Shown here piece after piece: positions 37,814-55,089 of a stretch of DNA of 58,010 bases (position 1 is its first letter; each line of letters starts with the position of its first letter). Both the position numbers and the translations under genes were made by a program. Under the pieces are notes generated by a model, which saw only the letters and a program-made list of their open reading frames with translations, made no database searches and was not told the origin of the DNA. Source of the stretch: an uncultured bacterium (GTDB taxonomy: Bacteria; Bacillota_I; Bacilli_A; RF39; UBA660); assembly GCA_949296705.1 (NCBI GenBank), contig CASFOW010000024.1:1-58010 (forward strand). Direction: 5' to 3'.

Positions 37814-39157
37814 ATGGTAGTAGAGAAAAAAGAAAATACCAAGGATATGGATATACAGAAAAAGGAACTCGAGAAAAAAATAGAAATATTTAAGAAAAAT
37901 GAAGATGCAGTTTATGATTTACTTGCTCTTTATGAGCATTTAATTTCTACTAAGAAACCACTAAAAGATTCTTTTCTTTTATGTTTGTTAGTAGATAAAT
38001 TAATCCACGATTGGATGGATCCTGATGTGGTCTTTATCCCACTTGAGAAGGGTGGACCTTCTTGGCATCTCGAACATTTACGTAATGAATATTTGAAAGT
38101 GAAAGAAGAAATAGAACAGTGTCCTAGTTTAGAGTTAAAAGAGGAATTTTCTCTTTCTGAAAGAAGGGAACAGGCTTTAGATATGTTAAGATCATTATCT
38201 TGGCGAGTAAAGGGTACTGGGGAGAAAGACGATATTAGTGAAATTAGTTTTTCTGATTTATGTTTAGATGCTTCTTTTTTTCATGTAGTTGTTGAGGTGT
38301 TGCTTTCTGATATTTCTTTTGAGCGGCGATTGATGTTATTTGAGTTATTGTGTCAAAAAGGAGTAGAAAAGAGGAATCTTGAATTTTTAGAATACTTTTT
38401 TGATCAAGATAGCCAAGGGTTAAGAAGAAGAAACAAAGACGAAGTTATAGAAAAGAAAAAATCTTTATTTGGTGCCTTTGTTAACAGTAAAGGAAGTTAC
38501 TCTTTTTTAGAGTTTATCAATGAACTAAAGAAACAGAAAATGTATGGTTGGTTTGTTCATTTTCAAAAGATGGGAATCGACGTTAATAGGTATTGTTGGG
38601 ATAGTTCTTCTCTTAAATTAAATCGAGAATGTGGTGAAGTTTCTATCGTTAGCTTCATTGCCAAAGAAAAGTATTTTTATCCTTTTCGCTATTTATATGA
38701 AGATCCTAGTTATCAAAAGTTACCAGATAGGATAAGAAAGAATAATGATTTAGCAATTGTTCAACAATTACAGTTTTTTGATTTATTAAATTTTATTAAT
38801 CTATCTAGTTTTCAAATGACTATAGATTTAGTTCCGGCAATTATGGATAGAATTTTTGAACAAGAGAGAATTGTTCTACGACCTGATTTTAAAATTTCTA
38901 TTATGGAATGTTTAATGGCACGAAGAGAAAAAGCTTCTAATCCCAAAGAATATCGACGTTTGTCGCAGGTGTTAACTGCCATTAATGACGCGCCTGATTA
39001 TTTCGATGAGATGAAAAAGCTAGAACAGGAAAAACAAAAATTGATTCAGAAAAGACAGGAAGTAGTAAGTAAATTAAGCAATTTAAACGAGATTTTACAA
39101 GATCAGGTACCGGGAAAGAGAATAATTAAAAATTTAGAGTTTCATAAGAAGTTTTAA
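37814..39157 (+). CDS. Unknown 447-residue soluble protein with coiled-coil ends
   Basis: I do not recognise this protein. It is highly charged and mostly helical. The first 35 residues (KKENTKDMDIQKKELEKKIEIFKK) and the last 50 (KKLEQEKQKLIQKRQEVVSKLSNL) are likely coiled coils. The middle has short helical pairs with an ankyrin-like look, for example MYGWFVHFQKMGIDVN, but too irregular for a firm call. There is no signal peptide or membrane helix. AGGGGG precedes the ATG and a terminator overlaps its stop, so it is monocistronic. It lies just upstream of the spoIIAA-sigF pair, with no evident functional tie. Confidence 0.65.
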   Translation: MVVEKKENTKDMDIQKKELEKKIEIFKKNEDAVYDLLALYEHLISTKKPLKDSFLLCLLVDKLIHDWMDPDVVFIPLEKGGPSWHLEHLRNEYLKVKEEIEQCPSLELKEEFSLSERREQALDMLRSLSWRVKGTGEKDDISEISFSDLCLDASFFHVVVEVLLSDISFERRLMLFELLCQKGVEKRNLEFLEYFFDQDSQGLRRRNKDEVIEKKKSLFGAFVNSKGSYSFLEFINELKKQKMYGWFVHFQKMGIDVNRYCWDSSSLKLNRECGEVSIVSFIAKEKYFYPFRYLYEDPSYQKLPDRIRKNNDLAIVQQLQFFDLLNFINLSSFQMTIDLVPAIMDRIFEQERIVLRPDFKISIMECLMARREKASNPKEYRRLSQVLTAINDAPDYFDEMKKLEQEKQKLIQKRQEVVSKLSNLNEILQDQVPGKRIIKNLEFHKKF

Positions 39158-39171: not shown

Positions 39172-39255
39172 AAAACTTTTAAGAAGTTTTGTCGAAGTTG
39201 TATAATTTTTTTGAAAAGTGGTCTATATTTAATATACAAGAATAAGAGGTGGATT

Positions 39256-39606
39256 ATGTTCCAAATCGATATGGAGTTTGTGCACGGAATGTTGTTTGTA
39301 CGATTAGAAGGAGTTCTTAGTAAACGGACATCAAAAGAGTTAAATGAAGTATTAGATCGGATGATTCACGTTCATGGAGTACGTTATTTTGTGATTAATT
39401 TAGAAAATTTATCTTTTCTCGATGAAGAAGGGGTTAAAGTGATTATGAGTCACTACCATGATATTGTTTTACATGATGGTAGATTAATTGTCTGTGGGGA
39501 TAAGTCACATTTAAATCAAAAAGTAGCGGATGAATTAGATCAAGCATTGCCGGATGTGGAGAGGAGTAGTGATGAATTAAGTGCCTTTCGTTTAATCCAT
39601 ATTTAG
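39256..39606 (+). CDS. spoIIAA: SpoIIAA-like STAS protein with altered phosphosite
   Basis: This 116-residue STAS-domain protein resembles the anti-anti-sigma factor SpoIIAA along its whole length: VRLEGVLSKRTSKELNEVLDRM, then FVINLENLSFLDEEGVKVIM and GRLIVCG. In SpoIIAA the loop is D-S-S-G and the first Ser is phosphorylated by the kinase SpoIIAB. Here it is D-E-E-G (56-59), so it cannot be phosphorylated there and may mimic the phosphorylated form. The ATG at 39256 has AAGAGGTGG; an upstream extension overlaps a terminator. It lies 55 bases before the sigma factor, with no spoIIAB between. Its role in this species is uncertain. Confidence 0.8.
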   Translation: MFQIDMEFVHGMLFVRLEGVLSKRTSKELNEVLDRMIHVHGVRYFVINLENLSFLDEEGVKVIMSHYHDIVLHDGRLIVCGDKSHLNQKVADELDQALPDVERSSDELSAFRLIHI

Positions 39607-39661
39607 TTTGTAGGTAGTTGTAGGTCGCAGTCCTTAAATAAAATAGGATAAGGGTGAAAAT

Positions 39662-40324
39662 ATGGCTATCGATTTACAAGAATATGAAGGAAGAATAGTG
39701 GCGTATGCGAGTAAGTTTCGTTATTACTACGATATGGATGATTTAATTCAAGTAGGTAGAATTGGCCTATTAAATGCTTTGGATCATTATGATTCAAGTC
39801 AGAATACGAAGTTTTCTTCTTATGCTTTTCTTTATATTAAAGGAGAAATTTTAAAATATGTACGAGAAAATAAAAATATTAAGATCAGTAAAGAACTATC
39901 GTCGTTAGTAAAACCAATCGAACGGGCTAAGGAGATACTTAGACAACGTTTACAAAAAGAGCCAACGATTGATGAAGTTAGTCATTTTTTAGAGCTTGAT
40001 CGTAGCGTGATTGAAGAAGTGATGTTGTCACAGGAGTTTGTTCGTAGTTTAGATTATGCTTTAAATGAAGATGATGAAGGAAAGGAAATGAATCTTTATC
40101 ATACTCTCTCTTATGAAGAAGTTGGCTATAATGCGGATGTACTTGATTTAAAACAGGCGGTAGAAGATTTAGAGGAAGAAGAGAGACGTTTAATTTCCTG
40201 TCGTTACTTTGAAGATATGACACAAAGTGAAACGAGTAAAGTATTAGGAGTTAACCAAGTAAAAGTTTCTCGAGAAGAGGCAAAGATTTTAAAAAAATTG
40301 CGGGGTGTATTAACAGATAGCTAA
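39662..40324 (+). CDS. sigF: Sporulation sigma factor, SigF-like
   Basis: This 220-residue sigma-70 family protein lacks region 1. Region 2 reads DDLIQVGRIGLLNALDHYD and KFSSYAFLYIKGEILKYVREN. Region 3 holds KEPTIDEVSHFLELD and region 4 holds LEEEERRLISCRYFEDMTQSETSKVLGVNQVKVSREE. This is closest in style to SigF/SigB/SigG. Its place after spoIIAA and before spoVA favours SigF, the first forespore sigma factor, although SigG is possible. It is about 35 residues shorter than B. subtilis SigF. GGTGAAAAT precedes the ATG. Its stop lies within a terminator. Confidence 0.85.
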   Translation: MAIDLQEYEGRIVAYASKFRYYYDMDDLIQVGRIGLLNALDHYDSSQNTKFSSYAFLYIKGEILKYVRENKNIKISKELSSLVKPIERAKEILRQRLQKEPTIDEVSHFLELDRSVIEEVMLSQEFVRSLDYALNEDDEGKEMNLYHTLSYEEVGYNADVLDLKQAVEDLEEEERRLISCRYFEDMTQSETSKVLGVNQVKVSREEAKILKKLRGVLTDS

Positions 40325-40345
40325 AGAATTATAGCTATCTTTTTG
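40315..40345 (+). terminator. Terminator overlapping the sigF stop codon
   Basis: AGATAGCT (40315-40322) pairs with AGCTATCT (40333-40340), followed by a T-run. It separates sigF from spoVA. Confidence 0.7.
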
Positions 40346-40374
40346 TATAGAATTTTTTTCTTTTTCTCATACTA
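40345..40374 (+). promoter_or_regulatory. Possible forespore (SigG/SigF-type) promoter of spoVA
   Basis: GTATA (40345-40349) and CATACTA (40368-40374) are 18 bases apart. This is the pattern of B. subtilis forespore promoters, and spoVA is SigG-dependent there. The leader would be very short, which weakens the call. Confidence 0.4.
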
Positions 40375-40392
40375 TTAATGGGTGATATATGG

Positions 40393-40833
40393 ATGGAAAA
40401 GACAAGATATAAAGAATTGGTAAAAAAACATCAACCAACCGAGACAAGAAGTCAGAATGCGTTTATTGCCTTTGTGACAGGTGGAATTGTTGGGGTGATT
40501 GGTCAGTTGTTAACGGAGTTTTATGCCGGCTTTTTTGAAATTTCTACTAAGGATGCTTCTACTTTTATGCTAGTGACGTTAATTTTTCTAGCTAGTTTGT
40601 TTACTGCACTAGGTTTTTTTGACAAATGGGTAAATTTCTGTAAGTGTGGATTAATTATTCCCATTACTGGTTTTGCTCATTCGATGACGAGTGCTGGTAT
40701 TGAATATCGAAAGGAAGGACCTGTTTTTGGATTAGGTAGTAATATTTTTAAATTAGCAGGCAGTGTAATTTTATATGGTGTAGTTTCGGCATGGTTTTTT
40801 GGAATGCTCAGACTACTGATTATGGGAGGATAG
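40393..40833 (+). CDS. spoVAC: Stage V sporulation protein AC
   Basis: This 146-residue membrane protein has about four helices with the family's signatures FVTGGIVGVIGQLLTEFY and IIPITGFAHSMTSAGIEYRKEGPVFGLG. SpoVAC is a mechanosensitive-channel-like part of the SpoVA complex that moves dipicolinic acid across the inner spore membrane during sporulation and germination. The ATG at 40393 has GGGTGAT in front and fits the proposed promoter; one 15 bases earlier does not. It heads a spoVAC-spoVAD-spoVAE operon, the minimal clostridial form rather than the seven-gene Bacillus form. Confidence 0.93.
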   Translation: MEKTRYKELVKKHQPTETRSQNAFIAFVTGGIVGVIGQLLTEFYAGFFEISTKDASTFMLVTLIFLASLFTALGFFDKWVNFCKCGLIIPITGFAHSMTSAGIEYRKEGPVFGLGSNIFKLAGSVILYGVVSAWFFGMLRLLIMGG

Positions 40834-40836
40834 AAG

Positions 40837-41832
40837 ATGACATTTAAATATAATCAGGTATTTGTTGAAGATGCTGCAACGATTGCGGGACCTTATGAAG
40901 CTATGGGACCGTTAAAGAAATATTTTGATCAGACTTTTGATAATTTGTATCATGGAGAAAAGTCGTGGGAAACAGCGGAAGCAAAAATTTTAGAAGATAG
41001 TATTCGTACTTTATTGAAAAAGACAAAAAAGAAAAAAGAAGATATTGATGTCATTATTTCGGGAGATTTGATGAATCAAATTACTTCTTCTTGTTATTCT
41101 TCTGAAAAATTTAATTTTCCTTTTTTAGGTATTTACAGTGCTTGTGCGACTAGTGTTGAGGGAATGATTTTAGGTAGTAGTTTAATTGATGGTGGTAAAG
41201 TAAATAGAGCGATTGCTTCTACTTCATCGCATAATATGTCTAGTGAAAAGCAATTCCGTAATCCTACTGAGTATGGAGCACCGAAACCAAAAACCGCAAC
41301 TTTTACCGCAACAGGTGGAGCTAGTATTTTACTAACCAATGAAAATACGGGAATTAAAGTTGAAAGTTCTACGATTGGAAAAATTATTGATTATGAACAG
41401 AATGATCCTTTTAATATGGGAGCGGTTATGGCTCCAGCTGCGGCGGATACGATTCATCGTCACTTAATGGATTTAAATCGTACTTTAGATTACTATGATT
41501 TGATCTTAACTGGTGATTTAGGCACTTATGGTAAAGAGATTTTGATTGACTTCATGAAAACAGAATACGGATTAGATATCAGTAGAAATTATAATGACTG
41601 TGGAACGATGCTTTATGACTTAGAAAAACAAAAAGAGGTCCAAGCAGGTGGCTCTGGACCGGTATGTAGTGCATTAGTAAATTATAGTGTTGTGTTAGAA
41701 CTGTTGAAGAAAAAGAAAATTAAAAAAGTATTGTTGGTCGCAACGGGAGCGTTATTTTCTCCTACTTTTGTCTATCAACATGAAAATATTTTAAGTATTG
41801 CGCATGCAATCAGTTTGGAGGTTATCAAATGA
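40837..41832 (+). CDS. spoVAD: Stage V sporulation protein AD
   Basis: This 331-residue soluble protein has a thiolase/KAS-III-like fold. YSACATSVEGM holds the thiolase-type Cys region and TATGGASILLTNENTG follows. In B. subtilis SpoVAD binds dipicolinic acid directly and is essential for its uptake into spores. Length is normal. It starts 3 bases after spoVAC and overlaps spoVAE by 4 bases (ATGA), so all three are coupled. Confidence 0.95.
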   Translation: MTFKYNQVFVEDAATIAGPYEAMGPLKKYFDQTFDNLYHGEKSWETAEAKILEDSIRTLLKKTKKKKEDIDVIISGDLMNQITSSCYSSEKFNFPFLGIYSACATSVEGMILGSSLIDGGKVNRAIASTSSHNMSSEKQFRNPTEYGAPKPKTATFTATGGASILLTNENTGIKVESSTIGKIIDYEQNDPFNMGAVMAPAAADTIHRHLMDLNRTLDYYDLILTGDLGTYGKEILIDFMKTEYGLDISRNYNDCGTMLYDLEKQKEVQAGGSGPVCSALVNYSVVLELLKKKKIKKVLLVATGALFSPTFVYQHENILSIAHAISLEVIK

Positions 41833-42179
41833 TCTATTTAACTTCTTTCTTGTTCTGTGGATTTATCTGTCTTTTGGGGCAAGTGATTTTGGATAATACT
41901 AAGTTAACTGCCGGTCATATTACTAGTATTTTTGTAGTAACCGGTGCTTTTTTAGATACCTTTAGTATTTATGATCAAATTATTAATCGAGTAGGAGCTG
42001 GTGCGTTAGTTCCTATTACTAGTTTTGGTCATTCTCTTATTCATGGTGCTTTAGATAAGGCTAGTGACATGGGAATTATGGGACTTTTGATGGGTATGTT
42101 TGATCTTACGGCTTCTGGTATTACGGCAGCTATTGTCTTTACTTTTATTTTTAGTTTATTCTTTAGACCACAAAATTAA
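41829..42179 (+). CDS. spoVAE: Stage V sporulation protein AE
   Basis: This 116-residue membrane protein with about three helices carries the family segment GAGALVPITSFGHSLIHGALDKA, and resembles SpoVAC in its 'PIT-FGHS' element. It is the third part of the SpoVA dipicolinate channel. It corresponds to SpoVAEB of Bacillus. Its stop overlaps that of the convergent RNHCP gene by 4 bases. No spoVAF or gerA genes follow. Confidence 0.93.
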   Translation: MIYLTSFLFCGFICLLGQVILDNTKLTAGHITSIFVVTGAFLDTFSIYDQIINRVGAGALVPITSFGHSLIHGALDKASDMGIMGLLMGMFDLTASGITAAIVFTFIFSLFFRPQN

Positions 42180-54414: not shown

Positions 54415-55089
54415 TTAGTTTTGAGCATTTCTGATGATAGATATGGAAGCTGAATAAGTTCCATTTTTTACTAGATCAAATGGAATTACAGAACTGTTGA
54501 TTAATCGGAAAGTACTGTTTGCTGCTGCTGTAAATACGGCGTTTCCGTTTACGGTAGCGGTAGCGTTTTGTGCTAGTGAATTGTGTGAAGATGATGAAGA
54601 GATCAATATTGCGGCTGGTGTTACTTGATTAAGTGTAATGATGACTGGAGCAGTAGTTGGGGTAGTGCTTGCTTTATGTCCACTGCTGTTTTTAACGTTA
54701 GCCCACCAATGGATGATGTATTGACCGGCTTGTAAAATAGTAAATACGCCATTTACGGGATTATAGTTAACATTACTGTTTAAGTTTGTTGTTGTAAATA
54801 GGATTGGGTTATCGGTATTTACAGTACTAGTTGTTTCATCATGAGCCATTAGGGCAGCTGTAGTTATTGCTGGAGTAGCACCCGTTGCCCCTGTTGCGCC
54901 CGTTGCGCCACTTGGTCCCGTTGGCCCAGTTGGTCCGGTCAAGCCTGTAGCACCCGTTGGCCCAGTAGGTCCAGTAGGTCCTGTTGGTCCAGTCAAACCC
55001 GTTGGCCCAGTAGGTCCTGTTGGTCCAGTCAAACCTGTAGCTCCACTAGCACCAGTTGGTACGTATCGGAATTTCTTCTTAGGCGTCAA
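54415..55089 (-). CDS. Collagen-like exosporium-type surface protein (BclA-like)
   Basis: This 224-residue protein has a short basic lead ([12 protein letters not shown]), about 20 Gly-x-Thr/Gly-Pro-Thr triplets (residues about 13-74), and a C-terminal beta domain of about 150 residues. That domain ([17 protein letters not shown], then FRLINSS) looks like the TNF-like head of BclA and related spore filaments. Thr in the third position of triplets is the usual site for sugar attachment. The start shown is a TTG without a clear Shine-Dalgarno and no other start exists before the repeats, so the N-terminus is uncertain. The base composition is much more GC-rich than its surroundings. It probably decorates the spore or cell surface. 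Confidence 0.8.

Follow-up and report, generated by a model that had tools for sequence, protein, structure and literature searches.

An orphan SpoIIAA-like STAS gene beside sigF in a Bacilli order in which no SpoIIAB was found

The SpoIIAA–SpoIIAB–SpoIIE system is the textbook route by which the two daughter cells of a sporulating bacterium acquire different fates. A STAS regulator that does without this serine switch is the mycobacterial RsfA, which is redox-controlled. The canonical mechanism of sigma-F activation has been summarized (PMC10990147), and spoIIAA, spoIIAB, sigF and spoIIE were reported in 2012 to be present in all the spore-forming bacilli and clostridia examined (PMC3533761). 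Regarding the order RF39, a study of 2024 describes spoIIAB and spoIIE as reduced or absent and spoIIGA, spoIIM, spoIIP and spoIIQ as present, and predicts that these bacteria form spores under a markedly different regulation (PMC10868615); its main text mentions neither spoIIAA nor sigF, and its section on sporulation-gene loss holds nothing on the phosphosite, the adjacency of the two genes, their selection or a Spo0A box. One year later, SpoMAG assigned a sporulation probability of 0% to RF39 metagenome-assembled genomes (MAGs) in a work that gives spoIIAB as one of nine genes found in all predicted spore-formers (PMC12536801). RF39 sequences were also among those passed to chicks through sprayed eggs in a study whose title speaks of spore-forming microbiota (PMC7028958), a transfer that hints, indirectly, at RF39 spores.

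The locus analyzed here belongs to an uncultured gut bacterium of this order (family UBA660) and lies in a window of 58,010 nucleotides, the whole stretch of DNA that was analyzed, which corresponds to one entire contig of G000, a draft genome of 1.58 Mb in 83 contigs with a completeness of 95%. Compared with SpoIIAA of Bacillus and Geobacillus, the anti-sigma-F antagonist (1TH8, 1THN), its STAS protein is alike in fold and in the position of its gene upstream of sigF, but it lacks the serine of the DSSG motif, is accompanied by neither SpoIIAB nor SpoIIE and remains under the curated SpoIIAA cut-off. With the Spo0A-dependent spoIIA operon (spoIIAA-spoIIAB-sigF), the locus shares the order of spoIIAA and sigF, a Spo0A box and the spoVA genes that come next, whereas spoIIAB was found in none of the 385 genomes of the order and, in this window, spoVAC is preceded by a hairpin and then by a sigma-G-type promoter of its own. 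As for RsfA, the likeness would consist in a STAS protein regulating a sigma factor without serine phosphorylation; the RsfA type, however, acts on an anti-sigma factor, and none was found here. The loss of spoIIAB and spoIIE in RF39 was already reported in the 2024 study; no report of an orphan, drifting and selected SpoIIAA with a Spo0A box was found in the literature searched, most subscription journals lying outside its coverage.

The STAS-sigF locus and its conservation

The five genes of the locus lie on the forward strand in the order STAS, sigF, spoVAC, spoVAD and spoVAE (Table 1). The first-pass annotation had described a spoIIAA next to sigF without spoIIAB and with DEEG in place of DSSG, and this description is exact: 55 bases separate the STAS gene from sigF, with no spoIIAB in between, and the residues of the protein include LSFLDEEGVKVIM where DSSG is expected. 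We place the start of the STAS gene at the ATG at 39256 (the stop codon ends at 39606) and not at 39157, as in the mechanical list of open reading frames, because the ribosome-binding-like sequence AAGAGGTGGA precedes this ATG and the alignment of the relatives agrees with it.

Table 1. Features of the STAS-sigF-spoVA locus (positions in the window)
Feature	Position	Strand	Remarks
Putative Spo0A box TGTCGAA	39190..39196	+	Within TTTTGTCGAA (39187-39196), upstream of the STAS gene
spoIIAA-like STAS gene	39256..39606	+	116 aa; DEEG at residues 56-59 in place of the DSSG phosphosite
sigF	39662..40324	+	220 aa; N-terminally short
Terminator-like hairpin	40315..40340	+	At the end of sigF; consensus scan, 4 such sites in the region against a shuffle mean of 1.6
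Sigma-G-type promoter GTATA-N18-CATACTA	40345..40374	+	Ahead of spoVAC; consensus match
spoVAC	40378..40833	+	Profile match
spoVAD	40837..41832	+	Profile match
spoVAE (spoVAEB type)	41829..42179	+	Profile match

The upstream neighbor (37814-39157) encodes a fast-evolving protein of 447 aa (dN/dS 0.16-0.23) with no convincing family match. Elsewhere in the window, a cluster at 9123-30548 contains two F1-ATPase-like subunits of the alpha/beta family (16773 and 18866), together with one gamma-like (18103) and one c-like subunit (15756), and is flanked by two very large predicted surface proteins, one of 1735 aa with fn3 matches and one of 2923 aa; this cluster is reminiscent of the additional F1-like ATPase clusters found in mollicutes. 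A collagen-repeat protein that matches C1q and, weakly, BclA_C, and that resembles exosporium glycoproteins, is encoded at 54415-55089 on the reverse strand, and genes that look by eye like glycosyltransferase genes lie near it.

Regarding the identity of the two proteins, the top NCBIfam model for the STAS protein is spore_II_AA (52.6 bits, the TIGR02886 cut-off of 114.75 not being reached). SpoIIAA was also the best match of its profile in the PDB (1TH8, 7.5e-22; RsbS, 1e-4) and of a fold search with its predicted model (pLDDT 81; E 1.2e-9, TM 0.86). The protein has a STAS fold and is nearest to SpoIIAA among STAS proteins. The sigma protein scored 154.3 bits with the SigF model TIGR02885, below its cut-off of 321.45, and SigF came first among the single-sigma sporulation models (154 bits against 106-116 bits for SigG). 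A tree of 56 sigma proteins placed the SigF rows of the family in one group (98/96) apart from the SigG group, and those of other class members were scattered on long branches without a single SigF clade. In the sigma trees, the SigF branches of the family also appear several times longer than the SigG branches of the same genomes.

The same arrangement occurs in the relatives, so that neither chance nor an assembly artefact accounts for it. A STAS protein was found in 299 of the 385 order genomes and sigF lies directly behind its gene at 185 of 187 loci (27 relatives, 80 of 222 matching collection stretches and 80 of about 155 listed places in the order, sets that partly overlap), with no SpoIIAB found at any of the 187. 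At the other two loci, which represent a single contig of G017 in two copies (L154 and L098), metK stands between the two genes. Among the matches listed, with frames of up to 164 aa, there is no natural fusion of a STAS and a sigma protein. Three pairwise comparisons inside the genus gave dN/dS values of 0.049, 0.029 and 0.056 for the STAS gene and 0.060, 0.054 and 0.054 for sigF; with values of 0.03-0.06, equal to those of sigF, the STAS gene is therefore no decaying relic in this genus. It nevertheless appears dispensable somewhere, since three genomes (G024, G029 and G031) have sigF with no detectable STAS protein.

The first-pass annotation had also envisaged that a second SpoIIAA keeping DSSG, together with intact spoIIAB and spoIIE, might lie elsewhere and reduce this protein to a side paralogue. 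The genome yielded a single STAS match and neither SpoIIAB nor SpoIIE, and a side paralogue is ruled out.

Absence of SpoIIAB and SpoIIE and variation of the phosphosite

Among 58 genomes searched with profiles, SpoIIAB exceeded the cut-off in 0 of the 35 family genomes versus 8 of the 23 other genomes of the class; the order-wide search, which returned none, detected the Bacillus subtilis positive control. A PP2C domain, present in all eight class genomes bearing SpoIIAB, was found in none of the 35 family genomes. In G000 itself, the genome search suggested by the first-pass annotation found neither spoIIAB nor spoIIE, nor any PP2C domain, and two of the four members of the partner-switch set (SpoIIAA, SpoIIAB, SpoIIE and sigma-F) are present. 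That both genes sit in missing parts of draft genomes, as the fragmented and incomplete assembly of G000 might suggest, is scarcely credible: SpoIIAB was found in none of the 385 genomes, of which 306 have a completeness of 90% or more and a contamination of 5% or less, and there is no space for spoIIAB between the STAS gene and sigF.

In the order as a whole, PP2C matches occur in 11 of the 385 genomes, six of them strong and in frames of 539-674 aa. Retention of SpoIIE elsewhere in the order was considered, and of the six strong proteins the two that were examined are not SpoIIE (one reached 36.6 of the 490.8 bits required, and the other gave no SpoIIE match at E 0.001). These two proteins, near-alike and from two genera of the order (L181, 1063-2937, and L183, 1063-2961, both on the reverse strand), combine PP2C with an RsbW-like C-terminal part and, judged by eye, membrane helices.

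Such rare PP2C-RsbW fusions, together with weak HATPase matches in G000 (the best at 31.8 bits in a 397-aa frame), would suit a scenario in which a diverged GHKL ATPase, for example a protein of histidine-kinase size, replaces SpoIIAB as antagonist of sigma-F and partner of the STAS protein. We judge it improbable. Of the four weak G000 matches, the three listed are in frames as long as sensor kinases or gyrase-type proteins (347, 397 and 536 aa), and the HATPase_c_2 matches listed for the 35 family genomes fall in frames of at least 333 aa, with a few weak shorter ones (e.g., 103 aa in G008); both the rarity of PP2C matches in the order and the unconserved phosphosite further argue against it.

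This phosphosite is variable. At the position of Ser58, 63 of 157 unique STAS-SigF pairs have Glu or Asp, 12 have Ser or Thr (several as DSSG), one has a gap and the remainder have mostly Ile, Met, Leu, Cys, Gln or Asn, while the motif is DSSG in all eight SpoIIAB-bearing genomes of the class. Among the 116 columns, those of the two phosphosite residues come 12th and 13th in variability, and the flanking D and G are nearly invariant and among the ten most conserved columns. As the two variable columns sit between near-invariant residues, the site looks like one that drifts after having been freed, rather than a phosphate mimic, and release from the kinase appears to fit this variation better than selection for such a mimic, for which, without SpoIIAB, there is nothing known to act on.

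The first-pass annotation had proposed that the partner switch was lost or rewired, with SpoIIAA locked in a phosphorylated-like state. The former proposal is supported, since the genome lacks both SpoIIAB and SpoIIE, as does nearly or wholly the entire order, along with the phosphosite. The latter fails as a general account: once the motif is compared among relatives, DEEG-like acidity is not the rule, most of the other pairs being neither acidic nor Ser/Thr, and a phosphomimic is ruled out in this general form. With the phosphorylation-based switch apparently gone, sigma-F would have to be controlled in some other way.

Spo0A boxes and the surrounding cascade

The heptamer TGTCGAA, a putative Spo0A box by its consensus, occurs within 150 nt upstream at 71 of 81 loci, against a mean of 0.41 and a maximum of 3 after shuffling, and mostly about 57-69 bases ahead of the start. 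In G017, where metK splits the pair, STAS and sigF each have their own box, and in the three STAS-less genomes the box stands directly ahead of sigF. This conservation may reflect control of both genes by Spo0A. Downstream, 66 of the 85 unique stretches preceding spoVAC had a sigma-G-type promoter (shuffle mean 0.58, maximum 3), by the sigma-G consensus with the spacing set to 17-19. Upstream of spoIIR, the textbook form of the sigma-F promoter was found in 0 of 20 stretches, and a sigma-F/G-type promoter of the form G(A/T)ATA-N17/18-CA in 16 of 20 versus 1 of 80 control stretches (shuffle mean 0.85), a count that is partly circular since the pattern was partly drawn from these same sequences.

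Spo0A was found in 31, SpoIIR in 33 and SpoIIGA in 33 of the 35 family genomes, and all three are present in G000. A second frame of SigF/SigG type (262-283 aa), read as SigG, occurs in 26 of the 35; none was found in G000, probably owing to an assembly gap, because close relatives carry SigG. With SpoIIAB and SpoIIE gone and Spo0A, SpoIIR, SpoIIGA and the boxes kept, the switch is lost and the cascade around it is left standing.

It is very unlikely, in our opinion, that the STAS-sigF pair is a relic in bacteria that are losing sporulation, with a decaying STAS protein. Some members could be seen in this light, such as G028, G034 and G033, whose sigF is accompanied only by very diverged STAS frames, or G021, which has neither STAS, sigF, SpoIIR nor SpoIIGA, and the SpoMAG prediction would agree (PMC12536801). 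Against this stand the low dN/dS within the genus, the conserved Spo0A box and sigma-F/G-type promoters and the retention of SpoIIR, SpoIIGA and Spo0A.

Possible control of sigma-F

Covariation was analyzed for signs of a contact between the STAS protein and sigma-F. In a mirror-tree analysis (38 non-redundant of 51 complete sets), the partial correlation of STAS and SigF was 0.33, no higher than that of SigF and SpoVAD (0.39). Mean-field coupling on the 157 unique pairs beat a neighbor-swap null; on the 84 pairs also having SpoVAC, though, the SigF-SpoVAC control reached the STAS-SigF level and STAS-SpoVAC had a nearly equal share of high scores. As these controls score alike, shared ancestry is the best reading of the signal.

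The lack of specific covariation would fit a purely transcriptional control of sigma-F through Spo0A, perhaps aided by proteolysis, in which the STAS protein has taken on an unrelated task and stands beside sigF only through their shared need for induction by Spo0A. The box kept right before sigF in the STAS-less genomes and the separation of the two genes in G017 point in the same direction; the nearly constant adjacency of the pair, the wide occurrence of the STAS protein in the order and the equally strong constraint on both genes do not, and we hold this explanation to be rather unlikely.

We lean, with some reserve, toward a dismantled sigma-F partner switch, in which an orphan SpoIIAA under selection acts with sigma-F independently of a kinase and is induced by Spo0A. 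This order of Bacilli would have lost both SpoIIAB, the anti-sigma kinase, and SpoIIE, the phosphatase, and SpoIIAA would persist as an orphan STAS protein, independent of phosphorylation. Spo0A, whose putative box is observed, would switch on the STAS gene and sigF together, and the strongly selected STAS protein would serve sigma-F without a kinase. Sigma-F may then drive spoIIR and sigG, and signaling from SpoIIR through SpoIIGA to the mother cell may proceed as usual, the parts being present. The likeliest version, in which the STAS protein binds sigma-F or its polymerase directly and holds or stabilizes it, is put forward only tentatively, given that no specific covariation was seen. Against this reading also count the three genomes with sigF and no detectable STAS protein, the 12 of the 157 pairs that keep Ser or Thr at the phosphosite, the fact that no observation of sporulation in these uncultured bacteria was found in the literature consulted, and the chance that a kinase has diverged beyond the reach of the models.

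An order that has sigma-F and its downstream signaling but not the switch suggests that the switch is replaceable. The finding also bears on the conflict between the sporulation predicted for RF39 in 2024 (PMC10868615) and the 0% assigned to its MAGs in 2025 (PMC12536801). It is a more speculative and somewhat doubtful step that the whole spore-forming order activates sigma-F in one compartment without a phosphorylation switch, SpoIIAA being a direct regulator of sigma-F, as an anti-sigma factor or a chaperone. If this were true, the first cell-fate decision of sporulation would run, in these bacteria, on a different principle.
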